A DNA stretch of 64,000 nucleotides from an uncultured Anaerolineae bacterium (GTDB taxonomy: Bacteria > Chloroflexota > Anaerolineae > Promineifilales > Promineifilaceae): NCBI GenBank assembly GCA_937943625.1, contig CALEAD010000020.1, positions 1 through 64,000 of the forward strand, read 5' to 3'. This document shows positions 1-64,000 of this stretch, in pieces. The notes under the pieces are model-generated. The model ran no database searches and was not told where the DNA came from. It saw nothing but the letters and a program-made list of their open reading frames with translations. Both the position numbers and the translations under genes were made by a program. Each line of letters begins with the position of its first letter. Positions within the stretch are counted from its first letter, which is position 1.

Positions 1-512
1 TCACTGAGCAGAGTTGTTACGCAGGCCGCTCCCTGCGTTTTGGCAATGGGGTGATTCAATTGCCCCTACCGTTTTTCAAAGGCATTTGTTTTTCGTATTT
101 TTGAGCCATTTCGGCTCTGATTGCACAATAGTTACGCTAACTAACTTGCGTTTGATTTTCATTCATCGTGGTGTGCCCCGCTCATGGGGAATTCCTTCGA
201 AAATGACCGCAGACCGCAGACTCCCTGCAGAAACAACAACTAGCTTCTACTTTAGGGTATGTGCGCCTTTGTGCCCAGGGGCATTGTTAAAATTCATGAT
301 CCCCTGCTAGACATCACCGGGGGAAATTCCCCCAACTACGAAGCGGCGCCCGGTGAACCGGTCTGTGCAGGTGCGGCGACAAGCCCCGTTGACGGGGCAC
401 CGTTATTTAGACGGGCAATTGATCGCTCGCCCTCCGCCCTCCGCCAATTGATCGCTGGTCCGCCGCGACGGTAAATCGAACTTTCAGTTCGATACGCGGT
501 TTGAAAACCGCG
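1..512. other. Gene-free region with intergenic repeats
   Basis: I find no convincing gene here; the open frames lack ribosome sites and family resemblance. The stretch holds a family-2 repeat (about 130-195), a partial family-1 repeat (about 201-230) and two perfect 8-bp inverted repeats (475-493 and 495-512) that abut the stop codon of the minus-strand gene starting at 1004. Confidence 0.6.
475..512 (-). terminator. Two tandem hairpins directly after a stop codon
   Basis: ATCGAACT (475-482) pairs with AGTTCGAT (486-493), and CGCGGTTT (495-502) pairs with AAACCGCG (505-512). The second hairpin touches the TAG stop at 513-515. There is no clear U-tract, so this may be a dispersed palindromic repeat that acts as a transcript end rather than a classical terminator. 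Confidence 0.4.
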
Positions 513-1004
513 CTACTGGTGGTCGGCGGCGGCAGCCGGTGAAGCCTCTTCCTTCGCTACTCTTTGCTTGCCCTGTGCGCTCATAGCGCGCGTTGCATCG
601 CGGGTGAAGCGTTTGATGAATGCCACGCGGCGGAAGCGCAAAGCAGACCAATCCGCATCAATGGCCACCTGACGCACGCCTTCAAAGCCTAACTCGCCCA
701 AAATGGCCCAGCCGGTATCCCGGTTAAATTCGCACCGGTATTTTTTGGAACTGGCTTTAGGGTAGGCAAACCAGATGGTGGCATCTCCTTTGGCCCTGGC
801 GGCAATGGCCCGCGCCAGGCTGTCTACTTCTTCTTGCCTGGTTACAAAGGCCAGGGAGAAATGAACGTCTGCTACTTCGGCTAGATCATGCCGGATGGTA
901 ACGTGCTCTAGCTTGTCCAGTTCTGCTGCAAAGCTTGCCGGGGCATGCAGTACGAGAATTTCTGGTTCGTCCTTCAGGTTGAGCTTTTTGAACAACGGGG
1001 TCAT
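513..1004 (-). CDS. Conserved hypothetical protein (DUF3052-like)
   Basis: This is a 163-residue soluble protein with no signal peptide or membrane segment. The start MTPLFKKLNLKDEPEILVLHAP and the later IWFAYPKASSKKY and DWSALRFRRVAFIKR blocks resemble a small uncharacterised family found in Bacteroidota and Chloroflexota, sometimes annotated DUF3052. I am recalling this family and have not searched it. No catalytic motif is visible. A GAGGT about 8 nt before the ATG supports the start. The last residues (HQ-stop) run straight into a palindromic repeat, so the C-terminus may have been altered by insertion of that repeat. It is codirectional with the flavin reductase upstream, 40 bp away, and could be cotranscribed. 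Confidence 0.7.
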   Translation of the reverse strand: MTPLFKKLNLKDEPEILVLHAPASFAAELDKLEHVTIRHDLAEVADVHFSLAFVTRQEEVDSLARAIAARAKGDATIWFAYPKASSKKYRCEFNRDTGWAILGELGFEGVRQVAIDADWSALRFRRVAFIKRFTRDATRAMSAQGKQRVAKEEASPAAAADHQ

Positions 1005-1044
1005 GTTATTACCTCGCTGAAATGATAGGATGGCGCAACGGCCG

Positions 1045-1539
1045 TTACCCCAAATCTAACTGACGATAATCCCGATTCCAATAAATGAGTGGCGCTTCAT
1101 TGGGGCGCGGCACGTGGCTGGCCTGCACCTCGCCCACGTAAATGGTGTGGGTGCCGGCAGGGTAGTGGGCATGCACGGTGCAATCCAGCCAGGCCAGGGC
1201 ATTGGTGAGAACAGGGGCGCCGGTAACGGCCGTTACCCACTCTCCTTTGGCAAATCGGTCCTCATCTTTTATCCAGGCAAAGCGATTCGACAATTCTGCT
1301 TGATCTGCTCCCAGGATATTCACGGCAAAGGTAGCGCCTGGTTGTTGCAGCAGTTCATGGCCGAGGGCTTTGTGGTCAATGCACACCAAAATCAGCGGCG
1401 GCTCCGGTGACACCGAGGCAAAGGCAGAAACCGTTAACCCATGGGGTTGAGATTCTGCCGGTGTTTGAATGGTAACAATGGTTACGCCTGCCGGAAAATG
1501 GCGCAGCGCATCCCGAAATTCAGTAGACGAAACAGACAT
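1045..1539 (-). CDS. Flavin reductase family protein (FMN-binding split barrel)
   Basis: The 164-residue product matches the flavin reductase-like domain: FRDALRHFPAGVTIVT near the N-terminus, the GLTVSAFASVSPEPPLILVCID block that contacts FMN, and FAVNILG in the middle. Such proteins reduce FMN or FAD with NAD(P)H for a partner monooxygenase (HpaC type) or bind flavin tightly. No monooxygenase gene lies next to it, so the partner is unknown. An upstream in-frame ATG would add 13 residues, but a GGAGG sits 6 nt before the ATG at 1539, so I prefer the shorter form. It probably shares a transcript with the small hypothetical gene downstream. Confidence 0.85.
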   Translation of the reverse strand: MSVSSTEFRDALRHFPAGVTIVTIQTPAESQPHGLTVSAFASVSPEPPLILVCIDHKALGHELLQQPGATFAVNILGADQAELSNRFAWIKDEDRFAKGEWVTAVTGAPVLTNALAWLDCTVHAHYPAGTHTIYVGEVQASHVPRPNEAPLIYWNRDYRQLDLG

Positions 1540-1612
1540 AGAAACCTCCGATAAGTTGTTGTTTGGGGCGTCGTTCACGCTTTCTGGAAACAGCGCTTGA
1601 CAATTTTCTGAA

Positions 1613-1680
1613 CGCCGACGACCGATCGCAAACCGCCAGACTGGAGACAGATTACAATTGGCTTTCCGCAGTCGGCGGTC
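1613..1680. repeat. Family-1 dispersed inverted repeat
   Basis: Outer arms of the CGCCGACGACC / GTCGGCGGTC type frame a divergent centre. The copy lies between the flavin reductase gene and the metalloenzyme gene. Other copies are near 201, 5247, 8109, 16732, 27772, 44364, 47875, 48142 and 62460. Confidence 0.6.
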
Positions 1681-1709
1681 AGGTTTGTGCCGATCATCTG
1701 AACCATGCC

Positions 1710-2648
1710 TTATTTTGGTAAATTGAGTGCCTGGCGCACTACAGGAGCGATGTCGGCCAGCGTGTGAATTTGTGCGGCATAGGCGGCATGATTTTGGCCC
1801 ACCAAAATCGTGGGGACGGGGTTATCGGTATGCTGGCGGTGGATTTTCTCTTCAATGTTACCGTGATCACTGGTGATAATCAGCAGCCCGTCATCATCAT
1901 CCCAGGCATCAAGCAGCCCGCCGAGAGCCATATCCAGCAGCTCCAGGTGAGCGCGCGCCTGGGCCAGCGTGCCGCGATGACCGCTGCGGTCACTGGGCCA
2001 GTGCTCAAAGAAGCTAAAAGCGTACAGGCTGGCCAGTTGGGCGATGCGCTGTCCTGCTGCCTGGGGGGTAAGCAGTGGTATGTCCTGGTAGCCGAGTACG
2101 TCGTGCCAGCCCTGGGCGGTAAAGTCTGGGCTGATGGCACGGCCGTTACGCAAATCCATGGCCGTTAGCAGCGGAAAGCTGGCGCTGGTGACGGCCAAAG
2201 GCACGGCCGAATAGAGGCGCCGTCCGCTTTCTACCGCAGTAAAGTATTGCTCCGGGTAAGGGGTGAGCAGGGCCGCATCTAGCCCGGCGGCCGCCACTTC
2301 GTGAAAGAGCGTGCCTTGTTCGATCACGGCCGTTACCGCTGCGTTGGGTTTAGGCCCATAATGCTCACCTACCAACGCCGGGACGTTACGCCCGGTGAGG
2401 ATGGTAGCCTGACCGGTAGCGCTTTGCGGCCTGCCCGGTACACCCAGGGCGGCATCGGTGGGAATCAGGCTGGCGCGGGGCGTGCTAATGCGTCCATTAT
2501 CGCGCAAAAACCAGCCCTTGCCCAACAACCCATTAAGGTTGGGCATGTGGGCGGTGACAAAAGGGTTGCTTGCCGCATCGGCGCTGCCCAACCCCACGCC
2601 ATCCATGAAGAAGATGAGCACGTGAGGGGAAGGTGAGTTTGCTTTCAT
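1710..2648 (-). CDS. Alkaline-phosphatase-superfamily metalloenzyme (phosphoglycerate-mutase-like)
   Basis: The 312-residue protein carries the metal-binding signatures of the superfamily that includes cofactor-independent phosphoglycerate mutase. FFMDGVGLG at about residues 13-21 supplies the first metal Asp, SATGQATILTGRN at about 76-88 holds the Ser/Thr nucleophile region, and LLIITSDHGNIEE with HTDNPVPTILVG near the C-terminus supplies the second Asp-His and His sites. It is much shorter than true iPGM (about 510 residues) and lacks the inserted phosphotransferase domain, so mutase activity is doubtful; a phosphatase or phosphopentomutase-like role is possible. It is soluble, with no signal peptide. 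It is transcribed divergently from the ArfB gene across an 84-bp gap. Confidence 0.75.
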   Translation of the reverse strand: MKANSPSPHVLIFFMDGVGLGSADAASNPFVTAHMPNLNGLLGKGWFLRDNGRISTPRASLIPTDAALGVPGRPQSATGQATILTGRNVPALVGEHYGPKPNAAVTAVIEQGTLFHEVAAAGLDAALLTPYPEQYFTAVESGRRLYSAVPLAVTSASFPLLTAMDLRNGRAISPDFTAQGWHDVLGYQDIPLLTPQAAGQRIAQLASLYAFSFFEHWPSDRSGHRGTLAQARAHLELLDMALGGLLDAWDDDDGLLIITSDHGNIEEKIHRQHTDNPVPTILVGQNHAAYAAQIHTLADIAPVVRQALNLPK

Positions 2649-2732
2649 GGTTATTTGTTGGCGCCGACGCTGGAAGAAAGTTGTTCCTCTCGCTCTTGCT
2701 CTCGCCCTTGCTTATGGTGTACAGTCAGGGGC

Positions 2733-3161
2733 ATGTTGGATGAAAATGTGCTTGTCGTCAATGAGCAGGTGCGCATTCCCCTGGCCGAACTGGAGTTTCG
2801 CTTCTCCACCAGCAGCGGCCCCGGCGGTCAGCACGCCAACCGCTCCGCCACGCGCGCCATTTTGCGCTTCGACGTAGCCAATTCGCCCAGCCTTCCAGAG
2901 GAAGTGCGCCAACGGCTGCTGCAAAAGCTGGCGTCGCGCCTGAGCAAAGAAGGGATGCTGCAAATTGAGGCGCAAGAGTCGCGCAGCCAGGTGCAAAATC
3001 GGGAAACGGCCGTGTTGCGCCTGCAAACGATTCTGGCCAATGCCCTGCAACTACCCAAAAAGCGTCGCCGCACCCGGCCAAGCCGTGAATCAATCGAAAA
3101 ACGGCTGGCGGCAAAAAAGCGACACAGCCAGAAAAAACAAGAACGCCGTCAGGAATGGTAA
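2733..3161 (+). CDS. arfB: Peptidyl-tRNA hydrolase ArfB (ribosome rescue factor)
   Basis: The 142-residue protein has the release-factor catalytic motif GGQ at residues 31-33 within SSGPGGQHANRSATRA. Its C-terminus is a long basic tail (KKRRRTRPSR and AAKKRHSQKKQERR). This is the layout of ArfB/YaeJ, where the basic tail enters the empty mRNA channel of a stalled ribosome and GGQ hydrolyses the peptidyl-tRNA. The family usually has about 140 residues. The frame is open upstream, but the ATG at 2733 (MLDENVLVVN) fits the family start. The gene converges on the transporter gene, with 25 bp between the stops. Confidence 0.92.
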   Translation: MLDENVLVVNEQVRIPLAELEFRFSTSSGPGGQHANRSATRAILRFDVANSPSLPEEVRQRLLQKLASRLSKEGMLQIEAQESRSQVQNRETAVLRLQTILANALQLPKKRRRTRPSRESIEKRLAAKKRHSQKKQERRQEW

Positions 3162-3186
3162 CCCGGTTGGGGACGCGGGGCTTGTT

Positions 3187-5232
3187 TTATTGGTTCCCGT
3201 TTGCCAGCAGCTCCGCCTCCTTCTCTTGCGCCACCCGCTTTCCTTCTGCTACATCTACTCGCGTCAGCAAGTAGCCACCCAGGATAAACAGCGCTACCAC
3301 GCTGAGAATGCCGGGGCGACTGCTGTCAAAAATGGCAATGGCCACAATGAAGAAGATCGGGCTGACGAACCCGGCGAATTTGGACATGATGCTGAACAGC
3401 CCAAAGAATTCCCCGCTCATGGAGGGCGGCGAGAGGCTGGCGTAGAGGCTGCGGCTGAGCGCCTGACTGCCCCCTTGCACCACAGCCACCATCCAGGCCA
3501 GGTACCAATACTCGATCACCGAATTGAGGAAAAAGCCCCAGGTGGCGATAATGGCATAGGTGCCCACAGCCAGCAAAATGCTGCGCTGTGTATCCACGCG
3601 CTGCGCCATGCCGGTAAACAGGCGCGGTCCGAAGAGATAAGCAAACAGCGCGCCCACGGCTTGCAACCCGATGAGCATACCCAAAATGGCGCCCAGGTTG
3701 CTGGTGCGCAGCGGTGGCAGCACCTCAATTTTAGAAACAGAGATCACAAAGCCCGTGCTGTTTGGATTTTTCTCGCCGCTGTTGATTAACGTCAGCATGT
3801 GCGTACCTTCAGTGGGAGCGCGGAAGGTTATAGTGTCGTCGTAGCGCTCGGTAGGGTTATAGGCGTCAATCAGGAAGGGGGAGCCATCCTCATTCAGTAG
3901 CGGCTGGCCATCAATCTCTACGACCCAAATGCCGTGGTCGGGCCCGGAGCTATGGGTCAGCTTCAGCGATTGGCCGTTGAAGGGTAGATTCAGGCGCGCG
4001 CTCGGCTCACGGCTGATAGCATACGGCACGTTAAACTCATCTGGGTTGCACCAGAAGGCATACCAGGCACAGCTCTCGCCACGCACTTCGCCCGTGACCA
4101 CGCCTCCTTGCCAGTTACCGCTGAAGGTAAATTTGGGGTTGTCTATGTAGTGCGCACCTTGGCCAACGGCCGTTGCTGTCTCCACAAAATTGGGTGAGGG
4201 ATTACCGGTCAGGCTTTTCGGCAGCACAAAACGGCCGCCAATGCCCACCACCGGCAGCATAATCACGTTAAAGATCACAAATGCCAGGAACATGGGCTGT
4301 CGCCAGTCTCCCTGGCTGGGCAGGTTGCCAAAGATCAGGCTGAAGGGAATGCCCACAAACTGCACCAGCAGCAGCGCCAGAATCAGCTCCAGCGTGCCAA
4401 AGCCCAGCTCGGCGCCGTAGATAGCGGCAACGCCAATAATGGTACCGATGCCGTCATTGTAAATCAGGTAAGCCACCAGATATTTGAACAGCTCTTTGTA
4501 TTCACGAATTTCGCTGAGGGTTTTGCGCAAACGGCCGAAACTCACGCCTATCAGGCTCTCTCCCGGTTCCAGTTTCTTGGTTGCCGACCTGGGTTCCGGC
4601 ACGTCGCGGAACAGGGGAATCGAGAACACCGCCCACCAGATGGCGACGCTGAGGAAGGAAAGGCGCGCGCCCCACGTCCCCTCCATAAATTGAATCATCG
4701 CCACGTTAATTGCCAGCAGCAAGCCGCCACCGAGGTAACCCAGGGCGTACCCCTGCGTGGAAACCCGGTCCTGATCTTCTTCTTTGGCGACGTGCGGTAA
4801 CAGCGCATCGTAAAATACATTAGCTGCGCCGTTGCCAATACGCCCCAGGACAAAGAAAATCGAGGCCATCATCCAGTCGCCGGTGCCGACCAGCACCAGC
4901 AGCCCGGTACCAATGACGCCTAAGCCTACAAAGAGGGCAAGAAACAGCTTCTTGCCGCGTTTAATATCCGAGATAGTGCCTAAAATGGGAGAAAGAATGG
5001 CAATAATAAAAATGGAAACACTTAGGCCAATAGTCCAGTATTGGGTGGCCTTTGCTTCACTGGGGAGTGTGGCTCCCGCGACGCTGCTGTAATAAACAGG
5101 GAGCACTGCCGCCATAATCGTGGTCGAGAAGGCGGAGTTGGCCCAGTCATACAGCGTCCAGGCGCGGATGCGCTTCTTGTACTCTTTTTCGCTCAGGGTT
5201 GCCAGGCTATCATGAACCGATTCTGCACTCAT
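3187..5232 (-). CDS. MFS transporter, UMF1/Atg22-like, with soluble insertion
   Basis: The N-terminus RIRAWTLYDWANSAFSTTIMAAVLPVYY is the hallmark of the UMF1 (Atg22-like) branch of the major facilitator superfamily. Hydrophobic segments continue to about residue 340 and resume at about residue 505, ending in GGYLLTRVDVAEGKR. Between them lies a hydrophilic block of roughly 165 residues (GNPSPNFVETATAVGQ to SVSKIEVLPP) rich in Trp, Gly and Asn, with no hydrophobic stretch. The total of 681 residues compares with about 430-450 for ordinary family members. The insertion probably sits on the outer face as a beta-rich domain. The substrate is unknown. A GGGAGG a few bases before the ATG supports the start. 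Confidence 0.85.
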   Translation of the reverse strand: MSAESVHDSLATLSEKEYKKRIRAWTLYDWANSAFSTTIMAAVLPVYYSSVAGATLPSEAKATQYWTIGLSVSIFIIAILSPILGTISDIKRGKKLFLALFVGLGVIGTGLLVLVGTGDWMMASIFFVLGRIGNGAANVFYDALLPHVAKEEDQDRVSTQGYALGYLGGGLLLAINVAMIQFMEGTWGARLSFLSVAIWWAVFSIPLFRDVPEPRSATKKLEPGESLIGVSFGRLRKTLSEIREYKELFKYLVAYLIYNDGIGTIIGVAAIYGAELGFGTLELILALLLVQFVGIPFSLIFGNLPSQGDWRQPMFLAFVIFNVIMLPVVGIGGRFVLPKSLTGNPSPNFVETATAVGQGAHYIDNPKFTFSGNWQGGVVTGEVRGESCAWYAFWCNPDEFNVPYAISREPSARLNLPFNGQSLKLTHSSGPDHGIWVVEIDGQPLLNEDGSPFLIDAYNPTERYDDTITFRAPTEGTHMLTLINSGEKNPNSTGFVISVSKIEVLPPLRTSNLGAILGMLIGLQAVGALFAYLFGPRLFTGMAQRVDTQRSILLAVGTYAIIATWGFFLNSVIEYWYLAWMVAVVQGGSQALSRSLYASLSPPSMSGEFFGLFSIMSKFAGFVSPIFFIVAIAIFDSSRPGILSVVALFILGGYLLTRVDVAEGKRVAQEKEAELLANGNQ

Positions 5233-5246
5233 TTTTCCTCCCTTGA

Positions 5247-5317
5247 AAATGACCGCCGACTGCTGACCGCTAACTTGTTGCAGGGTTATTCCTGGCCGTC
5301 TGCGGTATGCCGTCTAC
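5247..5317. repeat. Family-1 dispersed inverted repeat
   Basis: GACCGCCGACTGCTGACCGC begins the copy, and a degenerate CCGTCTGCGGT arm closes it. Read on the minus strand it ends GGCGGTCATTTTC directly before the ribosome site of the transporter gene. Confidence 0.65.
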
Positions 5318-5327
5318 CTTGTAAATG

Positions 5328-5368
5328 GAACCTGCGTTACGTTTTCATTCGTGATGGTTTGCCACCCT
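5328..5368. repeat. Family-2 dispersed repeat
   Basis: It contains AACCTGCGTTACGTTTTCATT followed by CGTGATGGTTTGCC. It resembles copies near 130, 21236, 44427, 49160 and 62402 and sits beside a family-1 copy. Confidence 0.6.
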
Positions 5369-5471
5369 CTAGGAAGCCTTCTAAAGATTGGGGGCAAGTT
5401 AAGCCGGGCGAATTATGCCTGTGCTATGGCAATTTGGCAAAAGTTGGTGCAGAAGGGAGCAGGGGCGTTGG

Positions 5472-7037
5472 CTAGGGTTGGAAAAAGAGTTCCCCAGCAA
5501 TGCATGAATCGTAGTCATTGCCGAGAATGACGCGATAGTTTGCGCCAATCCGCTCGTCATTGTTGACGCTGATTTCTTCCGGCGGCACGTTGAGGACAAA
5601 GGCGAGCAGGTCTGAAAATGCGCCTTTGAGGTTGGGGCCGTAGTAGGTAACGGCCGTTTGGGTCACTGTGCCTGGCTGCGGTTGTGCGTCGCTGAGGATG
5701 GGCATGAAGCCATACCAGGCCAGATTATCGGCGGCCAGCCGGGCCATGTCTGGGTTGCCGGTGGCGTTGACGACTTCGACAGTCAGCGGTGGGCGGTTGA
5801 TGCGGTTGAGGGCCGGGGGGCGATAGAGGTGGGCAAAGGTCTCTTGCATCATGCCTGGCCCTTCCCAGATAGGCAGCAGGGCGCTGGCTTCCAGCCCATT
5901 GCCAGTGGGGTAGCTCCACGCCTCTGTCTTACCGGTCAGGTACAGGGTGAGAATGCCGTTGTTGCGAATGGTGGGGGCCAAGGTGGCTAGTTGCAGCATA
6001 CGGCCGATATCCATGTCGGTCTCCACACTGTGACGATAAAGATTCCACAGAGCAGGCACCTGCGAAAGAAGGCCATGCTCAATCCCCTGATTGAGCATGG
6101 CGCGTAGCACTTGTTGTTGCCGCCGGCCGCGGTCAAAGTCGCCAAGCAGGGAGAGCTTGCGTGAACGCACATACCAGAGCGCCGTTTCGCCATCCATGTG
6201 GTACATGCCTGGCTTCAGGGTGACTACGTGCCAGTTATCGGCCTCTTCTGGGTCCAGGTCAGGAGAAATGAGCTGCCAGCCGCGAAACTCGCAACTGACG
6301 GCGATCTCGACGCCGCCCAAGGCATTGATCAGCGTTTCAAAGCCGGCAAAGTCTACGCGCGCGTAGTAGTGGACGGGAATGCCAAAGTTATAGAGGATGG
6401 TCTGTTTGAGAGTTTCGATGCCATAGAGTGAGGCGGTGTTTATTTTACCCATGCTTTGCCCAGGGATGTACACATACAGGTCACGCGGGATAGAAAGCAT
6501 GACGGCGGTAGGTAGGCGACGGTTCACGGTGACGAGGATGATGGTGTCGGACTTTTCTCCGGCGCCCAGTGGCTCGTCACTGCCCAAGAGCAGGATGTTG
6601 GTGTAGTCACCAGGGCGCTCGATGACAAAGGTGGGTACGGCGGTGGGAACGGCCGTTGCCGGGGTGGCGACACCTTCTTGCAATATGGGTTCTGTGACGA
6701 TCAGGATTGGTTCGGCTTGGGGAACGCTGGTTGGCGTGGCGCTGGGAATGGGGGTTGGCGATGGCGTAGGCATGGTTGTGGGCGTGGCACTGGCGAGTGT
6801 TCCTGGCTGTGCGGGTTGCGTTGGTGTGGCAACGGCCGTTGGCGGAATGACGGCGATGGTGGGAACGGTCGTTGGCGTTACCGTTTGCGTAGGCAGTAGC
6901 GCCAGCGGTATCAGCGTGGGGACAGGTTGTTCTGCTGGTACGGCGCGGCAGGCAACCAGGAGGAGCAACATTGTCAGGCCCAGGCGCACCGCAGCACTTT
7001 GTAGCCGCGACAAGGGGCAGCCCCGCACCTGCCGCAT
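5472..7037 (-). CDS. LytR-CpsA-Psr (LCP) family cell-wall polymer ligase, lipoprotein
   Basis: From the ATG at 7037 the protein has 521 residues. A hydrophobic leader ends in the lipobox LVAC (Cys30), followed by about 85 residues rich in Pro and Thr. The LCP domain follows: TNILLLGSDEPLGAGEKSDT, VMLSIPRDLYV, KINTASLYG, and later YVRSRKLSLLGDFDRGRRQQ, which supplies the Arg and Asp residues that bind the polyprenyl-pyrophosphate substrate. A LytR C-terminal domain (LTVEVVNATG onward) closes the protein. LCP enzymes attach glycans to peptidoglycan outside the membrane. The start overlaps the permease stop (TGATG), so translation is coupled. This makes it the likely anchoring step of the polysaccharide locus. 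An upstream in-frame extension inside the permease gene is rejected. Confidence 0.9.
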   Translation of the reverse strand: MRQVRGCPLSRLQSAAVRLGLTMLLLLVACRAVPAEQPVPTLIPLALLPTQTVTPTTVPTIAVIPPTAVATPTQPAQPGTLASATPTTMPTPSPTPIPSATPTSVPQAEPILIVTEPILQEGVATPATAVPTAVPTFVIERPGDYTNILLLGSDEPLGAGEKSDTIILVTVNRRLPTAVMLSIPRDLYVYIPGQSMGKINTASLYGIETLKQTILYNFGIPVHYYARVDFAGFETLINALGGVEIAVSCEFRGWQLISPDLDPEEADNWHVVTLKPGMYHMDGETALWYVRSRKLSLLGDFDRGRRQQQVLRAMLNQGIEHGLLSQVPALWNLYRHSVETDMDIGRMLQLATLAPTIRNNGILTLYLTGKTEAWSYPTGNGLEASALLPIWEGPGMMQETFAHLYRPPALNRINRPPLTVEVVNATGNPDMARLAADNLAWYGFMPILSDAQPQPGTVTQTAVTYYGPNLKGAFSDLLAFVLNVPPEEISVNNDERIGANYRVILGNDYDSCIAGELFFQP

Positions 7038-7924: not shown

Positions 7925-7934
7925 ATCTGATAAT

Positions 7935-7962
7935 GTTATATCCTTTACACCATTGCTTACAA
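7935..7962 (-). promoter_or_regulatory. Sigma-70-like promoter just before the permease gene
   Basis: On the minus strand TTGTAA (7957-7962) is followed after 16 bp by TATAAC (7935-7940). The ATG lies about 10 nt downstream of the -10 hexamer, so a transcript from here would be nearly leaderless. No Shine-Dalgarno is visible. Confidence 0.4.
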
Positions 7963-8061
7963 GTTGAGGGGTTTTGCCTTTTGTCAGGCCCTATTTTGAG
8001 CAGATCCATTGGCCACTTACGTAGCCACCATCATCAGTCAACAGGTGAACCCCCACCCCTG

Positions 8062-8092
8062 CCCCTCCCCCGCCTGCGGGGAGGGGTTTTTT
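8062..8092 (+). terminator. Intrinsic terminator, plus-strand orientation
   Basis: CCCCTCCCC (8062-8070) and GGGGAGGGG (8078-8086) form a perfect 9-bp stem with a 7-nt loop, followed by six T. It is oriented for plus-strand transcripts, although both flanking genes are on the minus strand. Confidence 0.65.
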
Positions 8093-8176
8093 ACAAATTA
8101 CTGGCAAAACTGCGGTCGGCGGTTGGCGGCCAAATGCCTGAAGAAGATGTAACCCATGCCAGGATTGGAGCCTGAT

Positions 8177-12630: not shown

Positions 12631-12643
12631 TCACGGTTTTTAA

Positions 12644-51855: not shown

Positions 51856-51891
51856 CCTGGCGATGGGGTGACGGGGTGACTGGTCAATCTT

Positions 51892-52581: not shown

Positions 52582-52608
52582 GAAATGGGAAGATAACCAG
52601 GCAGGTGG

Positions 52609-52614: not shown

Positions 52615-52684
52615 ATGGCCCTGTGGAACAAGGACTTATGCTGGAGACTTCCAACCTTGTTCTTCATAGGCAGCCATTATTTTC

Positions 52685-54265: not shown

Positions 54266-54344
54266 TTAATGGTTGGTTAGGTTGATTAGCTGGCTGGCCA
54301 ACCCAACCAACCCAACTAACCTGACTAACCTCACTAACGCTACC

Positions 54345-55232: not shown

Positions 55233-55256
55233 TTATTGCCCGATTGAGGTTTTCTT

Positions 55257-56744: not shown

Positions 56745-56820
56745 GCGTGAGCCGTAAAACGTGAAACGTGAGGTGTAAACAGACTACGGACCACGAATTT
56801 TGCCACCAGGAGAAGCTAAG

Positions 56821-57024
56821 ATGGCAAAACGAAAAATCGAATTAACAGATGCGCAAAGCCGGCGCAATGCGGAGATATTGTCGCGATTGGAAAGCGAGCG
56901 CCAGCGGCTGCTCGAAGAAACTCGCGCTTTGCAGCAGCAGGAAAAGCGCCGTTCTAGTCGCAAGCGAAATGCAGATGACCAGGCGGCGGCCGGGGCGCAG
57001 CGCGAATTAACCAATGACTTTTGA
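56821..57024 (+). CDS. Small basic coiled-coil protein coupled to purB
   Basis: The 67-residue protein begins MAKRKIELTDAQSRRNAEILSRL and continues as a charged helix likely to be a coiled coil (ESERQRLLEETRALQQQEK) with a basic tail (RRSSRKRN). I know no family. AGGAG lies 8 nt before the ATG at 56821, which makes it a better start than an upstream TTG. Its stop overlaps the purB start by 11 bp, so it controls or supports purB translation. It may be a small accessory protein. Confidence 0.6.
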   Translation: MAKRKIELTDAQSRRNAEILSRLESERQRLLEETRALQQQEKRRSSRKRNADDQAAAGAQRELTNDF

Positions 57025-58435
57025 CCACAATACGTTTATCTCCCCCTTTACCTGGCGCTATGGTTCAGAGGAGATGCGCCAGATATGGTCAGAAGTGCGC
57101 AAAAGGCAGCTGATGCGCTGCGTGTGGGTGGCGCTGGCGACCGCGCAACACGAGGCGGGGCTGGTTACGGCCGATCAACTGGCCGACTTGCAAGCGCATC
57201 AAAACGACATAGACGTGCCGCGCGCCCTGCAAATCGAGCAGGAAACGCGGCATGACGTGATGGCCGAAATTCGCGCCTTTGCCGAACAGTGCGCCATAGG
57301 CGGCGGCATCATCCATTGGGGGGCTACCAGTGCCGATATTACCGATAATGTGGATGTGCTGCGCCTGCGCGAAGCGGCCGTCTTGCTGGCGCGGCGGCTG
57401 GCCGAACTGTTGTTGGCCCTGGCGCAAAAAATTGGGGAAACGGCCGTGTTGCCTACCATGGCGCACACCCACATCCAGCCCGCCGAACCCACTACCCTGG
57501 GCTACCGCTTTGCCGTCTACGCACAAGATTTGTTGCTAGACGGCCGTGATCTGCAACACCTTATCGCCACCCTGCGCGGCAAGGGATTGAAAGGAGCTGT
57601 CGGCACGCAGGCCAGTTACCAGGAGCTGCTGCACGGTACGGGCGTTTCGGCGCAGCAGCTAGAAGAGGTGACCATGCGCCACTTGCGCCTGCCTTACTTC
57701 CTCATTGCCACACAAACGTACACGCGCCAGCAAGATTTGCGCGTGCAGCACGTCCTGGCCGGCATTGCGGCTTCATTGCACAAATTTGCCCTGGATTTCC
57801 GCGTGTTACAATCCCCTCCTTTTGGCGAATGGGCGGAACCGTTTGCCAAAAAGCAGGTTGGCTCTTCGGCCATGCCGTTCAAGCGCAACCCTATCAACAC
57901 AGAAAACATCTGCTCCCTGGCGCGCTACGTGGCAGCGCTGCCTGCCGTTGCCTGGGAAAATGCCAGCCAGGCCATTTTGGAGCGCAGCCTGGATGATTCC
58001 GCCAATCGGCGCATCTTTCAGGCTGAAGCCTTCCTGGCCGTAGATGAGATGTTGCTGCGCGCCCTGCGCGTGGTGCGCGAAATGAGCATAGATGAAGGCG
58101 CTATCCGGCGCAATATGGCTACCTATGGCCCCTTTGCCGCGACAGAACGGGTGTTGATGGCGCTGGTTGGTGCCGGCGGCAGTCGTCAGGAGGGGCACGA
58201 ATGGATTCGCCATGCCAGCCTGCAAGCATGGGAAGCCTTGCGCCAGGGGCAAGCCAACCCCCTGGCAGAGCTGCTGTGTGCCGATGAACGCATTACGCGC
58301 TTTGTGCCGCCAGAACAGGTGCGGCTGCTGCTAGATGCGAGCGAACACACGGGTACGGCCGTTGCGCGCGCGCGCGCCTTTGCCCAACAGGTGACAGAAG
58401 AAGTGACGCAATGGTCGGTGGCAATTAGTGATTAG
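57014..58435 (+). CDS. purB: Adenylosuccinate lyase
   Basis: The 473-residue enzyme cleaves SAICAR and adenylosuccinate in purine synthesis. HDVMAEIRAFAEQC with IHWGATSADITDN and MAHTHIQPAEPTTLGYRF hold active-site residues, and the fumarase/aspartase signature is GSSAMPFKRNPINTE. DDSANRRIFQAEAFLAVDEML is typical of the PurB branch. It is a cytoplasmic homotetramer in known cases. It has no ribosome site of its own and starts inside the small coiled-coil gene, so it is coupled to it. Confidence 0.95.
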   Translation: MTFDHNTFISPFTWRYGSEEMRQIWSEVRKRQLMRCVWVALATAQHEAGLVTADQLADLQAHQNDIDVPRALQIEQETRHDVMAEIRAFAEQCAIGGGIIHWGATSADITDNVDVLRLREAAVLLARRLAELLLALAQKIGETAVLPTMAHTHIQPAEPTTLGYRFAVYAQDLLLDGRDLQHLIATLRGKGLKGAVGTQASYQELLHGTGVSAQQLEEVTMRHLRLPYFLIATQTYTRQQDLRVQHVLAGIAASLHKFALDFRVLQSPPFGEWAEPFAKKQVGSSAMPFKRNPINTENICSLARYVAALPAVAWENASQAILERSLDDSANRRIFQAEAFLAVDEMLLRALRVVREMSIDEGAIRRNMATYGPFAATERVLMALVGAGGSRQEGHEWIRHASLQAWEALRQGQANPLAELLCADERITRFVPPEQVRLLLDASEHTGTAVARARAFAQQVTEEVTQWSVAISD

Positions 58436-58551
58436 CAATTGGAGATTAGAGATTGGCGATGAAGGGTTGCATACGGCCGTTGTCTCCCTTTTAATAAGAG
58501 ACAAACCAACTTTCACCCTTTACCCTTGATGCTTACTTCAGGAGCAACGCC

Positions 58552-59199
58552 ATGTTCGACACCCTTTTTGGCCGCCGCGCGCGCGAAATCGAGATGAAAC
58601 AAGGCAACCGTTTGCCACCTGGCCAATCCCTGACAGACAAATTTCCCGTACTGCACTACGGTCCGGTTCCCAACGTAGACCTTGCCACGTGGACCCTGCG
58701 CATTTTTGGCGCCGTGGAAGAGGAAATCGTGTGGACCTGGGAGCAGTTCAACAAACTACCGCGCACACAAGTGACGCTAGACCTGCACTGCGTCACGCGC
58801 TGGTCAAAATTTGATACCCCCTGGGAAGGGGTCTCGCTCGGTCAACTGGTGCGCGAAGGTATTGTGCGACCCAGGCCAGAAGCCAGATTCGTCGTCCAGC
58901 ATTGTGAATACGGCTACACCACCAACACCCCCATAGAGCTGGTGCTGCAAGATAACTTTTTGCTGGCAACCCACTACGACGGCAAACCGCTAACACCTGA
59001 GCATGGTTATCCTCTGCGCGGGTTGGTGGGCACATTTACCGACCGCAGCGAGCCAAAATCTGCCTATTTGTGGAAAGGAGGCAAATGGCTGCGCGCGCTG
59101 GAATTCCGCGTCCATGACCAGCCCGGCTTTTGGGAGCGCAATGGTTACCACAATGAAGCTGATCCCTGGAAAGAACAGCGCTTTGCGCGCGGTTGGTAA
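58552..59199 (+). CDS. Molybdopterin-dependent oxidoreductase, sulfite-oxidase fold
   Basis: The 215-residue protein is the isolated molybdenum-cofactor domain. [26 protein letters not shown] has the Cys that ligates molybdenum (HCVTRWS), followed by [46 protein letters not shown], and [17 protein letters not shown]. There is no signal peptide, Tat or Sec, so it is cytoplasmic, unlike MsrP/YedY. The partner and substrate are unknown; related short proteins are often annotated as sulfite oxidase-like. A clear AGGAG stands 8 nt before the ATG. It is upstream of the rpmH operon but probably in its own transcript. Confidence 0.88.
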
Positions 59200-59218
59200 A
59201 CAAAACCGCGCATCTGAT

Positions 59219-59247
59219 TTGACCACCCCCATTGGCTCAGATATAAT
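59219..59247 (+). promoter_or_regulatory. Consensus sigma-70 promoter of the rpmH operon
   Basis: TTGACC (59219-59224) and TATAAT (59242-59247) are exactly 17 bp apart, 150 bp before the rpmH start. The long leader then carries a terminator-like hairpin. Confidence 0.85.
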
Positions 59248-59354
59248 CCCGTGTCGCTCATCGGTGCGTACGAGCGTTGGTTTATTGTGCCTCTGCCCTG
59301 CCCTTGCACTGCAAGCGGGGAGTGGCTTAGCTGGATAGATGTGTGACATGGACA

Positions 59355-59379
59355 CAGGGCTTTAAGCCCTGGTTTTTTT
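59355..59379 (+). terminator. Terminator-like hairpin in the rpmH leader
   Basis: CAGGGC (59355-59360) and GCCCTG (59366-59371) pair around a 5-nt loop and are followed by seven T. It lies between the strong promoter and the ribosome site of rpmH, so it may act as an attenuator or end a short RNA. Confidence 0.55.
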
Positions 59380-59398
59380 GCCTAAGGAGATTGAGATT

Positions 59399-59623
59399 AT
59401 GCCAAAGCGGACATATCAACCCAAAATACGTCGCCGCATGCGCGTTCATGGTTTTCGCCAGAGAATGGCAACGCGCGGCGGCCGTGATGTGCTGAAGAGC
59501 CGGCGGGCAAAGGGTCGCCGTGTGTTAACGGTTAGCATGAACAATAGCGTGAAGCGCGTGAACTGGAAGGGTACCTCGGCTACGGCGTACCGCTCTGTCA
59601 AGCGGTATGGTGGCGGCAAGTAG
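59399..59623 (+). CDS. rpmH: Ribosomal protein bL34, C-terminally extended
   Basis: The first 45 residues ([20 protein letters not shown] and on through [25 protein letters not shown]) match bL34 exactly in pattern. The protein then continues for another 29 residues ([19 protein letters not shown] and [10 protein letters not shown]), giving 74 where the family has about 44-50. The extension is basic and has no in-frame stop in between. AAGGAG lies 9 nt before the ATG at 59399, and an upstream in-frame start is rejected. It heads the operon with rnpA, yidD, a propeller lipoprotein, yidC and jag, the classic order near the replication origin. Confidence 0.95.
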
Positions 59624-59660
59624 GGCGTAGAGATTGGTTACCGACCCTTGCGGAGGCTGA

Positions 59661-60038
59661 ATGCTGCCCAAACGAAACCGTTTGCGGCATTCGCTGCAAG
59701 TGCAGCAAGTCAGACGCCAGGGGCAAAGCTGGCGTCACCCGTTGGTTATTTTGCTTGTGACAACTCATGAGGATGAAGTCAGCCGCTTTGCTTTCGTTGC
59801 CGGCCGCAGCGTAGGTAAAGCGGTTGTGCGTAATCGGGCAAAGCGGCTGTTGCGTGAAGCGGTGCGGTTGAACCTGCCTGGCATTTTGCCGGGCAGGAAT
59901 TGTTTGCTTATTGCGCGGCCGGCTATCGTAGGAGCCTCGTTTGCCGAAGTGGAAACGGCCGTGCTGTATCTGCTACAGCGTGCCCAGCTGCTGACTGCGC
60001 AAACGGCCGTATTCCCACAAAAGGTTCCGCCAACATGA
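59661..60038 (+). CDS. rnpA: Ribonuclease P protein component
   Basis: The 125-residue basic protein carries the RNR signature [17 protein letters not shown], which contacts the RNA of RNase P, and the start [20 protein letters not shown] typical of RnpA. It assists 5' processing of tRNA precursors. GGAGG lies 4 nt before the ATG. Its end overlaps the yidD start (ATGA). The C-terminal 20 residues extend beyond the usual core and include AACGGCCGT palindromes. Confidence 0.95.
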
Positions 60039-60244
60039 AACGGTTGCTTTTAGGATTGATCCGGTTTTACCAAAAGTTTATTTCGCCCGCTCTTCCCCCA
60101 AGCTGTCGCTTTCAACCAACTTGTTCTCATTATGGGTACGAAGCCATTCAAAAACACGGGGTACTGAAGGGTGGCTGGCTGGCAATCAAGCGGATTGCAC
60201 GCTGCCACCCGTTTAACCCTGGGGGGTACGATCCGGTACCGTGA
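60035..60244 (+). CDS. yidD: Membrane protein insertion efficiency factor YidD
   Basis: The 69-residue protein has the YidD core: [65 protein letters not shown], with the conserved [11 protein letters not shown] Cys pair and [10 protein letters not shown]. It sits between rnpA and the propeller gene, overlapping rnpA by 4 bp. It aids YidC-dependent membrane protein insertion in known systems. Confidence 0.95.
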
Positions 60245-60273
60245 CCCTGTGGCGCTTTCACGGAGGTAATGCG

Positions 60274-61431
60274 TTGTACGAAGCAAAACGGCCGTCTCAT
60301 CGGCTGACTGTTCTGATGCTCATTGTCGCTGCCTGGCTGCTGGCTGCCTGTGGCGACATCATAGCCAGTGCCAACTGGCCCGGCCTTTCCGCTGAAGGGG
60401 ATATTGTTTACGTGGCCTTTGGCGACGGCGTGCTGGCCTACAACGTGCCAGAGCAGCGCGAGGAGTGGGTTTTCTCGCCGGTGCCCGGCCGGCTGCAATT
60501 TTACGCCGCACCTGGGGTCGAAAACGGTCGTGTGGTGTTGGGTGATTTTGGCATGTCGCAAGGCTTTTTCAGCCCGCGCGTGGTGGTGCGTGCCTATGCC
60601 GTGCGCCAGAGCGGTACCAATGTGCCCGATGAACTGTGGACTGTGCCCAATATCGCCTCAGACCGCATTGTCGCGCCTCCGTTACTGGTAGACGGCCGTG
60701 CGTTCATCGGCACGGCAGACAATCAGGTGGTTGCCCTGGATGCGGACGACGGCACAGAACTCTGGCGTTTCCAGACCGGGCACAGCATTTGGGGGCGCCC
60801 CTCTTATAAAGAGGGCACGCTTTTTGTCGCTTCACTCGACCGTAAAGTGTACGCGCTGGATGCCGAAAGCGGCCGTCAGCTCTGGATGACAGAACTTGGC
60901 GGTGCAATTGCCAGCAGCGTGGTCATAGACACAGATCTGGTCTACGTCACCAGTTTTGACCAGAACATGCACGCGCTTGACCGTGCCACCGGCCGCATTG
61001 TCTGGAGCGTAAAAGCAACGGCCTGGGTTTGGGGTGCGCCGGTAATGGGTGAAGGCGTTATCTATTTTGTTGATGCAGCTGGCGTGGTCTATGCCGTAGA
61101 TGCTGAAAACGGCCGTGTGCTTTGGTCTATCAGCGTAGAAGGCAGCGTGCAAACAACGCCTGCTCTTGCCAATGGTGTGCTTTACGTGGTTTCAGACAAA
61201 GACCTGGAGTCCAAAGAACCCAAGGGCATCATTACAGCCATATCAACCGATGACAACGGTCGTGTGCTCTGGCAGCAAGAACCAGGTTTGCCCGTGTTCA
61301 CAACCCCCGTGGTCGTTGGCGATACCCTGGTCGTCGTTGTACCCCCATCAGCCGACACCCTGCTAATTGGCTACGACGCCATGAGCGGCGCACAGCGATG
61401 GAAGGTCGTGCCGCCAAATATGCGGCGCTAA
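60274..61431 (+). CDS. PQQ-type beta-propeller lipoprotein (BamB-like)
   Basis: From the TTG at 60274 the protein has 385 residues. A GGAGG sits 7 nt before this TTG, while the earlier GTG at 60241 lacks one. The leader LTVLMLIVAAWLLAACGD has the lipobox LAAC. The rest is a PQQ-like eight-bladed propeller with repeats of the type VVALDADDGTELWRFQTG, VYALDAESGRQLWMTELGG, MHALDRATGRIVWSVKA and VYAVDAENGRVLWSISVEG. BamB works in outer-membrane assembly, but this lineage probably has no outer membrane, so another folding or quality-control role near YidC is likely. It is inserted between yidD and yidC, an unusual position. Confidence 0.88.
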   Translation: MYEAKRPSHRLTVLMLIVAAWLLAACGDIIASANWPGLSAEGDIVYVAFGDGVLAYNVPEQREEWVFSPVPGRLQFYAAPGVENGRVVLGDFGMSQGFFSPRVVVRAYAVRQSGTNVPDELWTVPNIASDRIVAPPLLVDGRAFIGTADNQVVALDADDGTELWRFQTGHSIWGRPSYKEGTLFVASLDRKVYALDAESGRQLWMTELGGAIASSVVIDTDLVYVTSFDQNMHALDRATGRIVWSVKATAWVWGAPVMGEGVIYFVDAAGVVYAVDAENGRVLWSISVEGSVQTTPALANGVLYVVSDKDLESKEPKGIITAISTDDNGRVLWQQEPGLPVFTTPVVVGDTLVVVVPPSADTLLIGYDAMSGAQRWKVVPPNMRR

Positions 61432-61463
61432 TAGCGCTACGCTATTAGCACCACGCTATTAGC
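61427..61463 (+). repeat. Three copies of a 10-bp word forming alternative hairpins
   Basis: GCTAATAGCG (61427-61436) pairs perfectly with CGCTATTAGC at 61440-61449 or with the second copy at 61454-61463. It overlaps the propeller gene's stop codon and lies 31 bp before the yidC start. Confidence 0.6.
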
Positions 61464-61493
61464 ATCTCTTGGTTTACAGGACGGGTAACAACT

Positions 61494-62357
61494 ATGTGGG
61501 ACACTTTCATCCTCAATCCCATGATCAACGCACTGTTGATGCTTTACGAACTGTTGGGCAAAAACTTTGTGCTGGCCATTACCGTATTCACCATCCTCAT
61601 TCGCCTCATCACTTTGCCGCTAAATCTGCGCCAGCAGCGTTCCAGCATGAAAATGCAGGAAATCCAGCCCCAAATTCAGGCCATTCAGAAAAAGTACCGC
61701 GACAATCCGCAGAAGATGCAAGAAGAGTTTGCCAAGATTGGTTATAACCCGGCCGATACGCTAATGGGCTGCCTGCCGCTGCTGATTCAGATGCCCATTC
61801 TCATTGGTCTCTATCAGGCAATCATTAACGTGCTGGGTTCTACACCGCAGGCGTTATTTGGTCTAACGCAGCGCGTTTATCCCTTCATTGATCTGACAGC
61901 GCTGCTGCCGGTGGAAAACAAATTCTTCTGGCTGAATATGGCACAGCCAGACCCGCTGCTCATCCTGCCACTGCTCGTCTTTGGCACGATGTTCTTGCAA
62001 CAGAAGCTGCTGACGCCGCAAATGAAGCCGGGCGATAACAAAGACAATCCTATGGCGTCTATGACGCAATCCATGACCTATACCATGCCCATTATGTTTG
62101 GCTTCATTTCGCTCAGTTTTCCCGCCGGGCTATCTATTTATTTTGTGCTTTCCAACGTGATTGGTATTGCGCAGGGGTATTACATGCGTTACACCATGCC
62201 CAAACCAGAACCCAAAAAAGCCCTGCCGGTGGTAGAGGATGCACCTGTGGCGGCGGAGAAGGAGCCACTAAAGAGCGAGTACAGCCCAAGTACGCCCGCT
62301 TTGCCAGCGGCAAAACGGCCTGCCTCAAAACGAAAGCAGCGTTCAGCCAAACGTTAG
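61494..62357 (+). CDS. yidC: Membrane protein insertase YidC
   Basis: The 287-residue protein is a short YidC/Oxa1 of Gram-positive type, without the large periplasmic domain. LGKNFVLAITVFTILIRLITLPLNLRQQRSSMKMQEIQPQIQAIQKKY is the first segment with the conserved charged residues, followed by GCLPLLIQMPILIGLYQAI and the final segments FGFISLSFPAGLSIYFVLSNVIGIAQGYYM. The tail is basic (KRPASKRKQRSAKR), which contacts ribosomes. It is preceded by the propeller gene and followed by jag after a repeat-bearing gap of 180 bp. Confidence 0.95.
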   Translation: MWDTFILNPMINALLMLYELLGKNFVLAITVFTILIRLITLPLNLRQQRSSMKMQEIQPQIQAIQKKYRDNPQKMQEEFAKIGYNPADTLMGCLPLLIQMPILIGLYQAIINVLGSTPQALFGLTQRVYPFIDLTALLPVENKFFWLNMAQPDPLLILPLLVFGTMFLQQKLLTPQMKPGDNKDNPMASMTQSMTYTMPIMFGFISLSFPAGLSIYFVLSNVIGIAQGYYMRYTMPKPEPKKALPVVEDAPVAAEKEPLKSEYSPSTPALPAAKRPASKRKQRSAKR

Positions 62358-62401
62358 CGCGACTTTTGCGTAGCAAAAGCTGCCAGGTTCCGCCGACAGA
62401 T

Positions 62402-62462
62402 TCAGGGGGGTTCCCCATGAGCGGGGCACACCACGATAGATGAAAATGGAACGCAGGTTAGC
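62402..62462. repeat. Family-2 dispersed repeat, reverse orientation
   Basis: GTTCCCCATGAGCGGGGCAC, ACCACGATAGATGAAAATGG and AACGCAGGTTAGC are the reverse complement of the copy near 130. It is followed at once by a family-1 copy at 62460. Confidence 0.65.
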
Positions 62463-62520
62463 CGTCGGCGGTCAGCTGGCTGTGTTCGGCAGCCAGCGGT
62501 CTGCCGTCAGTGGTTATTTT
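62460..62520. repeat. Family-1 dispersed repeat abutting the jag ribosome site
   Basis: GCCGTCGGCGGTCAGCTGGC to CTGCCGTCAGTGGTTATTTTCC, then GAGGAGCGTGAGAG and the ATG of jag. Paired with a family-2 copy on its left. Confidence 0.65.
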
Positions 62521-62536
62521 CCGAGGAGCGTGAGAG

Positions 62537-63367
62537 ATGATGAACAAAAAGAAACGAGAGTATGAAGCGCAAGGGAAAACAGTAGAGGCGGCCATCGAAT
62601 CAGGTCTGGCGGCCATGCGCGCTACGCGAGATGAGGTGGAAATTCAGGTGTTGGATGAGGGCAGCCGGGGGTTACTGGGTATTGGCAGCCGCAATGCGGT
62701 TGTGAAATTAACCCTTAAACAAGGTTTGGTGCAAGAGGAGCCTGTAGCACCGGTGATAACTGCTGCTGCCCCCAAACCAGTTTCACCTACGGTAGTAGAA
62801 CCAATGACGACCCTCTCTGCGCCTGCGCCGGTTGAGATGCTGGCAGACGAAGAGGAGGATGAGGAAGAGCCAACGGCCGTTTCCTCTGCTCCTATTCTTG
62901 ATGAAGAAGCGGCCGTTGCCCAGGAAATCCTGACCAACCTGCTGCAAAAGATGGCCGTTTCCGCTACCATCGTTGCTGGCGTCACTGCGCCAGACGACTT
63001 GACTGGCGAGCGCGTGAACGTGCTGGATATTCGTGGTGAAGACTTGCGCATTTTGATTGGGCAGCGTGGCGACACCCTGAGCGCCTTGCAATACATTGCC
63101 CGGTTGATGGTAGGGCACAGGCTTCACCAGCGCGCCAACTTTGTCATTGACATTGAGGGTTATCGCCAACGTCGCGAGGTAGCGCTGGCCAAACTGGCGG
63201 AACGCATGGCGCAAAAAGCCATTCAACAAAGACGCCCCATCAGCCTGGAGCCCATGCCGCCCCACGAACGACGCATCATTCATATGACGCTGCGCGGCCA
63301 TCAGCGCGTATACACCCAAAGCACGGGCGAAGGTGACCGGCGCAAAGTGCGCATTTTGCTCAAATAG
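62537..63367 (+). CDS. jag: RNA-binding protein Jag (KhpB), SpoIIIJ-associated
   Basis: The 276-residue protein has the Jag_N domain (EYEAQGKTVEAAIESGLAAM to DEGSRGLLGIGSRNA), an acidic linker (VEMLADEEEDEEEPTAVS), a KH domain with the GxxG loop in EDLRILIGQRGDTLSALQYIARLM, and the R3H domain with RREVALAKLAERMAQ and ERRIIHMTLRGHQRV. It binds small RNAs and controls cell elongation in other bacteria. It follows yidC as usual for this operon. GAGGAG precedes the first of two adjacent ATG codons, so it starts at 62537 or 62540. Confidence 0.93.
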   Translation: MMNKKKREYEAQGKTVEAAIESGLAAMRATRDEVEIQVLDEGSRGLLGIGSRNAVVKLTLKQGLVQEEPVAPVITAAAPKPVSPTVVEPMTTLSAPAPVEMLADEEEDEEEPTAVSSAPILDEEAAVAQEILTNLLQKMAVSATIVAGVTAPDDLTGERVNVLDIRGEDLRILIGQRGDTLSALQYIARLMVGHRLHQRANFVIDIEGYRQRREVALAKLAERMAQKAIQQRRPISLEPMPPHERRIIHMTLRGHQRVYTQSTGEGDRRKVRILLK

Positions 63368-63442
63368 GGTATCTCGTCTGCAGTCAAGAAGTTTTGTAAA
63401 GCGCTGTTTCCAGAAAGCGTGAACCACGCCCCAAATAGTTAA

Positions 63443-63482
63443 GTCAGCCAGTCAGCTAAAGAACGAAAGCTGGCCGGCTGAC
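63443..63482. terminator. Hairpin between convergent genes
   Basis: GTCAGCCAGTCAGCT (63443-63457) and AGCTGGCCGGCTGAC (63468-63482) pair with one mismatch and one G-U. It separates jag from the CPBP gene and could act on both sides; no long T-run follows. Confidence 0.55.
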
Positions 63483-63485
63483 AGA

Positions 63486-64000
63486 CTACATCCCCCCATT
63501 GCTTACAAACTGCTCCAGGTAGAGGGCCAGCATAGAGAGCATTCCCAAGACAAAATTGTAGCCAAAGTGGACGAAGATTGCCACGCTGGTATTGCTGCGC
63601 TCGCGTATCCATCCCAAAGCCAGGCCAATGACAAACACTACCAGCGTCACCGGTGTAATCCCATATTGCACGTGGGCAATGGCAAAGAGTAGGGAAGTAG
63701 CCCAAAGGCCAAATACGGGCTGTAGGGCGCCACGGAAAAGGATCTCTTCCCCCATGCCCGCAGCCAGGGCCACCACAAACCAATCCCACACGGAGTTCAT
63801 GTTGGCAAATAGTTCCCCACTGATCTCTTGCACCATTTGCGATTCTTCTGGGGCAAAAAATGCCCATACTGCCCCAGCAGCCCATTGCAGTACAACCAGG
63901 ATACCAATCCAGCGCAGCCCCAGGCGAATTTGTTCCCAGCTCATCGGCAGCAGCCCCAACCGTTCCGAGATGGTGTGCCCCTTGCGCCGCACCCATAGTC
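63486..64000 (-). CDS. CPBP family intramembrane metalloprotease, partial at the window edge
   Basis: At least 171 residues are visible; the frame stays open to the end of the window, so the N-terminus is missing. The CPBP motifs are present: AAGMGEEILFRGALQPVFG (catalytic Glu-Glu and Arg), LLFAIAHVQYGITP (His) and FVHFGYNFVLGMLSM (His and Asn). About four hydrophobic segments remain. The family covers prenyl-protein-type peptidases and bacteriocin self-immunity proteins; the function here is unknown. A GTG at 63992 could be a start, but the upstream codons fit the family too. Confidence 0.85.
   Translation of the reverse strand, partial: LWVRRKGHTISERLGLLPMSWEQIRLGLRWIGILVVLQWAAGAVWAFFAPEESQMVQEISGELFANMNSVWDWFVVALAAGMGEEILFRGALQPVFGLWATSLLFAIAHVQYGITPVTLVVFVIGLALGWIRERSNTSVAIFVHFGYNFVLGMLSMLALYLEQFVSNGGM

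Follow-up and report, generated by a model that had tools for sequence, protein, structure and literature searches.

A palindrome that recurs across the locus

The stretch analysed here, referred to as the window, is 64 kb of contig 20 in the assembly of an uncultured Anaerolineae bacterium (4.09 Mb, 94.6% complete; labelled G000 in our genome set and called the source genome below), and a short palindrome, ACGGCCGT, recurs throughout it. Exact search found 85 copies of this 8-mer, 38 of the full 10-mer form AACGGCCGTT, and 140 of the core CGGCCG; after masking of the sites, 1.03 copies of the 8-mer and 0.07 of the 10-mer are expected under a second-order Markov model. The initial annotation, made from the letters alone, had put the number at about 85, roughly half of them 10-mers, where one or two would be expected, and exact counting bears it out; the five example sites that it quoted (1037, 10578, 28354, 54966, and 62872) are all among those found. 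It had also likened the motif to HIP1, a highly iterated palindrome (HIP) of cyanobacteria, whose own sequence, GCGATCGC, has 0 copies in the window by exact search. The sites, all from exact search and given without strand (strand.), are as follows.

ACGGCCGT 8-mers, first bases, window positions 1..20114: 1038, 1226, 2139, 2326, 3006, 4166, 5650, 6649, 6832, 8412, 8487, 10579, 10654, 10882, 13183, 14283, 14317, 14955, 15071, 15987, 17523, 17728, 18099, 20114
ACGGCCGT 8-mers, first bases, 21004..39840: 21004, 21738, 24163, 24208, 24855, 25434, 25852, 26391, 28068, 28355, 28497, 29115, 30014, 31225, 32625, 33452, 33501, 33663, 34272, 35139, 36108, 37209, 37389, 38420, 38956, 39060, 39085, 39840
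ACGGCCGT 8-mers, first bases, 40023..62873: 40023, 41194, 42185, 43414, 43635, 43854, 44350, 45291, 46542, 46812, 46888, 47697, 49487, 50084, 50575, 51178, 52342, 53314, 53865, 54109, 54967, 55645, 55828, 57440, 57540, 58355, 58473, 59955, 60003, 60288, 60692, 61109, 62873
AACGGCCGTT full 10-mers: 1037..1046, 1225..1234, 4165..4174, 5649..5658, 6648..6657, 6831..6840, 8411..8420, 10578..10587, 10881..10890, 13182..13191
AACGGCCGTT full 10-mers: 17727..17736, 18098..18107, 20113..20122, 24162..24171, 24854..24863, 25851..25860, 26390..26399, 28067..28076, 28354..28363
AACGGCCGTT full 10-mers: 30013..30022, 31224..31233, 33500..33509, 34271..34280, 35138..35147, 36107..36116, 37208..37217, 37388..37397, 38419..38428, 39839..39848
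AACGGCCGTT full 10-mers: 43853..43862, 44349..44358, 50083..50092, 51177..51186, 53313..53322, 53864..53873, 54108..54117, 54966..54975, 62872..62881

Abundance in the genome and the family

The source genome carries 6,316 copies of ACGGCCGT (1,542 per Mb) versus 255 of the letter-reversed control palindrome TGCCGGCA, and in 464 kb of it 703 copies compare with 8.9 expected by the Markov model, an enrichment of about 80-fold. Confinement to the window and agreement with a Markov model were the two outcomes that the initial annotation had named as contrary to its claim, and neither was found. Most genera among 51 relatives of the same family have 3,000 to 15,000 copies per genome (maximum 15,176; about 2,000 per Mb in genus g22), and some of these relatives have background or intermediate numbers only. 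Copy numbers are at background in 66 genomes outside the family, comprising four from the sister family and 62 from elsewhere in the class. Named relatives, which are uncultured Anaerolineae (Chloroflexota), were fetched through a gene in the window:

55257..56744, + strand, IMP dehydrogenase gene, the anchor for fetching the named relatives (L135-L146) and for ortholog comparison

The palindrome is present in three of the named relatives, with 78-85% identity, and absent in Caldilineaceae and Litorilinea relatives, with identity of about 65%. The highly iterated palindrome is genome-wide and confined to one family of uncultured Anaerolineae.

The even spread noted initially holds in the window, where counts per 4 kb are more even than random (variance/mean 0.34), but fails in 400 kb elsewhere in the source genome, where spacing is close to Poisson, and regular spacing was dropped as a general property. 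Site pairs below about 40 bp are under-represented in G000, G008, and G015, and spacing is otherwise near random. A coding preference, suggested by the source genome (1.60 per kb in genes vs 0.86 per kb in gaps), was likewise dropped because coding and intergenic densities are equal in G008, G022, and G047. The 10-mer form is preferred in the source genome and some relatives, but not in g22, which has the same 8-mer with the next outward base not fixed. A copy-and-paste origin was considered and rejected: the outermost bases (-1 and +1) vary without regard to each other, so that the sites do not resemble copies of some longer element.

Genus g22 also shows an excess of 45-46 bp spacings, which is due to repeat arrays at L238:1-6400 (G047:C12:160001-166400). 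These consist of imperfect repeats of about 46/92 bp, most units of which contain ACGGCCGT, and they sit between small genes resembling toxin-antitoxin modules (PIN-domain-like and antitoxin-like proteins) in a layout that resembles a cassette array.

Clade-specific dialects on one core

In a survey of every palindrome, covering at most about 100 kb of each genome, we found that the CGGCCG core is enriched nearly throughout the family and that the outer pair depends on the clade, being A..T, T..A, G..C, or none. ACGGCCGT is the majority (A) dialect. TCGGCCGA, the T dialect, occurs in G008 (137 in 100 kb vs 2.1 expected) and G032, and GCGGCCGC, the G dialect, in G015 (110 in 84 kb vs 2.1 expected); genus g6 and G018 have the bare core with no fixed flank. 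A changed core was seen in just one member of the family, G012 (L316-L318), where TGCCGGCA is iterated (46 in 52 kb vs 1.5 expected; 3,665 genome-wide). Both arms agree in each 8-bp dialect: for example, 137/177 CGGCCG cores in G008 have T/T flanks and 0 have A/A. On an rpoC tree, which leaves out G018 and has several weakly supported branches, the ACGGCCGT genomes fall into a single large group, within which g4 and G021 have lost the palindrome, the T, G, and bare-core genomes group together, and the dialect state changes seven times when none and weak core are counted as states. The dialects follow phylogeny, on one shared core within one family.

Maintenance of sites and change of proteins

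The sites are strictly kept against synonymous drift. At rpoC positions with the same amino acids in 21 aligned ACGGCCGT genomes, the 8-mer is identical in 578/611 ordered comparisons, which count each pair twice and come from genomes that are not phylogenetically independent. Control windows in rpoC with the same amino acids are only 14-18% identical, and ACGGCCGT sites compared with genomes that have another dialect or no HIP only 25-29%. Genes of the window give the same picture against L135-L137, with 42/42 ordered comparisons identical where amino acids are the same; conservation in aligned relatives, which had been proposed as a check, is thus pronounced. A partner without the site is usually several letters off (distance 0: 52; distance 1: 7).

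Near-miss 8-mers with a change in an outer base are 3.5-fold enriched in the source genome, and those with a core change are at the level of HIP-less controls; this concentration of deviations at the outer bases is found in the A dialect only and is absent in T and G. The enrichment is as would be expected of a graded binding site, and the near-miss pattern would fit an equilibrium under a selection-like force with a scaled strength of about 3.5-4.5 (the log of observed over expected), to which selection and biased conversion could lead alike. A depletion of near-misses, considered as proof of a conversion drive, vanished once HIP-less controls were compared.

The statement in the initial annotation that protein selection cannot explain the motif was right and understated. 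Synonymous-codon shuffling leaves 74 of 655 genic copies in the source genome, and the proteins themselves have changed. There are 372 TAV tripeptides in 464 kb of this genome vs 62 expected (6-fold), 338 of them encoded by ACGGCCGT; for NGR the count is 143 vs 22 expected, 123 of them encoded by AACGGCCGT. Other dialects favour other tripeptides, namely SAE in T (189 vs 25 expected, 7.5-fold) and AAA (147 vs 35, 4-fold) and RGR (48 vs 12) in G. HIP-less relatives have no comparable excess of TAV, NGR, or SAE, and AAA is about two-fold high there. Single aligned positions in rpoC illustrate the effect: one reads GAC GGC CGT (DGR) in most ACGGCCGT genomes and AGC GGC CGC (SGR) in G015, and another reads TAC GGC CGT (YGR) in several ACGGCCGT genomes and TTC GGC CGA (FGR) in G008. 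The palindrome has altered protein sequence, and the proteins follow the dialect.

Phages dense in the palindrome

Pattern scans of IMG/VR recovered phage contigs in which ACGGCCGT occurs about 1.5-4 times per kb and the other dialects rarely; the density is biased upward, since most of the contigs were found by the motif pattern:

L355, L356, L360-L364, L386, L390, L394, L397, L401, L403, palindrome-dense phage contigs (IMG/VR)

These contigs encode terminase, portal, tape-measure, and endolysin proteins. A search with one terminase protein led to a further fragment, L408, with 8 copies in 4.3 kb; the DNA around most other related terminases has no copies. Two scans of IMG/VR of the same type for TCGGCCGA returned no dense contig, a result that doubles as a negative control for the A-dialect finding. 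The motif alone would link these phages to hosts of the family. Since the phage contigs are dense in ACGGCCGT, the palindrome is not an avoided restriction target. The nucleoid site suggested in the initial annotation is weakened as a purely chromosomal role by the same observation, as phages carry the palindrome as densely.

Comparison with known iterated motifs

HIPs are palindromic 8-mers that occur genome-wide at about 500-2500 per Mb, far more often than composition would give, and HIP1 and alternate HIPs are described from cyanobacteria (Elhai 2015, PMC4390886; Robinson 1995 on HIP1, as cited there). The likeness proposed in the initial annotation is right in kind: here too the motif is an 8-bp palindrome with a GC-rich core, occurs genome-wide at about 1 per kb or more (1.5-2 per kb here), and is replaced in some lineages by an alternate palindrome or none (TCGGCCGA, GCGGCCGC, TGCCGGCA, the bare core, or no HIP). 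HIP1 near-sites also deviate at the outer bases (PMC4390886), which vary more than the core here as well, as judged from near-misses in the A dialect only. The two differ in phylum and sequence, and the dialects here share one core and follow phylogeny, whereas the cyanobacterial alternates are described as sporadic (PMC4390886). Further differences are that no matching methyltransferase was found in all bearers here and that a strong effect on protein sequence and dense carriage by phages are shown here. In the literature searched, outside which subscription literature lay, we found no earlier report of a HIP-type palindrome in Chloroflexota.

The dialects of DNA uptake sequences (DUS) in Neisseriaceae are similar in having thousands of copies, a conserved core, and clade-specific outer letters that follow phylogeny (Frye 2013, PMC3630211). 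DUS are, however, asymmetric and act in transformation, whereas the palindrome here is perfect, has symmetric flank pairs, and occurs in phages. Known Chi sites, which belong like it to the over-represented oligomers linked to recombination, are asymmetric, orientation-biased, and several-fold rarer; the palindrome here has no orientation.

A different motif, TTCCGGAA, is present 7-13 times in about 16-21 kb (0.2-0.3 expected) at five loci of gut Clostridia (L161, L178, L185, L212, and L214, from Ruminococcus and relatives), and is possibly a further iterated palindrome.

A repair mark as the tentative explanation

The palindrome is a real and strong phenomenon of the HIP kind. The explanation that we put first, at somewhat less than even confidence, is a HIP1-type palindrome with dialects that has a symmetric reader and an orphan-methyltransferase mark directing repair. 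Because the palindrome is perfect and without orientation, and its arms vary together, its reader may be a two-fold symmetric (dimeric or type-II-like) putative protein that recognises it as double-stranded DNA. The contacts of this reader with the core would be conserved, those with the outer pair would drift between clades, and the reader would act on any DNA residing in the cell, including that of phages. A putative orphan DNA methyltransferase would mark the palindrome, as proposed for HIP1, and the mark would direct mismatch or recombination repair, which would make a site every 0.4-0.7 kb worth keeping. Repair marking appears the most likely mechanism.

The source genome encodes one N6/N4 enzyme (M1), one Dam-like enzyme, a DUF1156-like gene truncated at the end of a contig, and an orphan enzyme, M3:

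G000:C7:77245-79221 (L002:124-2100), M3, orphan 658-aa methyltransferase, candidate writer

M3 is DUF1156-like and has split N6/N4 motifs (DPPY plus DPMxGGGT) and Zn-ribbon-like cysteine pairs, and the residues of its catalytic motifs are invariant in 20 aligned orthologs. Almost every genome with an 8-bp dialect has it, and none of the bare-core genomes (g6 and G018) does. M3 is the best candidate for the writer, although it is only partly associated with the palindrome. Full-length MutS1 is encoded by most bearers; it was not found in G036 and G040, congeners of both of which have it. Because MutS1 is generally present, a role in mismatch repair is compatible with the gene content.

Several observations weigh against this explanation. 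The initial annotation had proposed looking for a methyltransferase, and a methylation target stays plausible, but none of the families surveyed (PF00145, PF02086, PF01555, M1, and M3) proved universal: PF00145, M1, the Dam-like enzyme, and M3 each lack a match in some bearers, whose assemblies are incomplete. The m5C enzyme (PF00145) was not found in the source genome or in near-complete bearers such as G019 and G049, and M1 is absent from G019, G036, G040, and G044. Credible copies of the Dam-like enzyme are lacking in G049, and G011 has only a weak one, although HIP-less relatives encode the enzyme. Neither G013 (95% complete, with 6,514 copies) nor G003 has M3, whereas the sister family and genus g4 have it but lack the palindrome. 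In the T-dialect contig G008:C1 (L315:7107-8988, minus strand) M3 is split by a frame change, which may reflect either genuine loss or an error in sequencing. The association of M3 with the palindrome cannot reach significance on the tree, where independent-pairs tests are low in power. Finally, if the role is repair of the chromosome, any advantage to phages that carry the motif would not be obvious.

Alternative explanations

The palindrome could instead be a self-tag, such that DNA dense in it is spared by a putative defence, silencing, or degradation system and the chromosome and successful phages stay dense. Phage loci with structural genes have 2-4 copies per kb, which is at or above host density, L408 was found by protein alone while most related terminases have no copies nearby, and outer letters that differ by clade would tell self and neighbours apart. 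It was, however, by the motif pattern that the first phage loci were found, and the motif itself provides their link to hosts; we consider a self-tag possible but unlikely. About as tentative is a clade-specific DNA password, by which a putative cellular system would spare or service only DNA dense in the local dialect, chromosomes and phages would have rewritten thousands of codons, and the outer letters would change as lineages split.

We give similarly modest weight to a mutational or conversion drive, in which a repair process would tend to convert near-sites to the palindrome, whatever DNA they lie on, with no benefit to the bearer. Such a drive would affect genes, gaps, and phages alike, as is seen, and would accord with the changed proteins and with the equal coding and intergenic densities of several genomes. 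Near-miss 8-mers are, however, not specifically depleted relative to HIP-less controls, and near-perfect retention over about 75-85% protein identity would need a very strong drive.

More doubtful is a role in nucleoid architecture, with the sites bound by a putative dimeric chromosome-packing protein. The genome-wide spread, the palindromic form, and the shortage of site pairs below about 40 bp in three genomes would suit such a protein, but this shortage could be a coding constraint, is not seen in phages, and is replaced in g22 by the 45-46 bp excess of a local repeat array; phages also carry the palindrome as densely as chromosomes. A DNA-uptake sequence with dialects, as in Neisseriaceae or Pasteurellaceae, is very improbable: copy number, conserved core, and phylogenetic dialects match DUS (PMC3630211), but known DUS and uptake signal sequences are asymmetric where both arms are symmetric here, and phage carriage would not be expected.

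An ordinary compositional effect is contradicted by the Markov and synonymous-shuffle controls, and a restriction site, although known restriction enzymes recognise the CGGCCG core, almost certainly fails as well, as such sites tend to be avoided and the 8-mer is about 80-fold enriched in the host and dense in phages.

Implications

HIP1 has been an unexplained oddity, described only from cyanobacteria in the literature searched. A second, distant family with several dialects on one core, phages included, turns it into a comparative question: a reader protein would have to occur in the bearers, with differences at those residues that follow the outer letter. The palindrome could also be used as a sequence signature by which phages and contigs are assigned to hosts of this family. 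For the bacteria themselves, a signal at the level of DNA rewrites proteomes, with the TAV excess in 464 kb scaling to about 2,700 per genome, and this bears on how protein conservation in them is interpreted.

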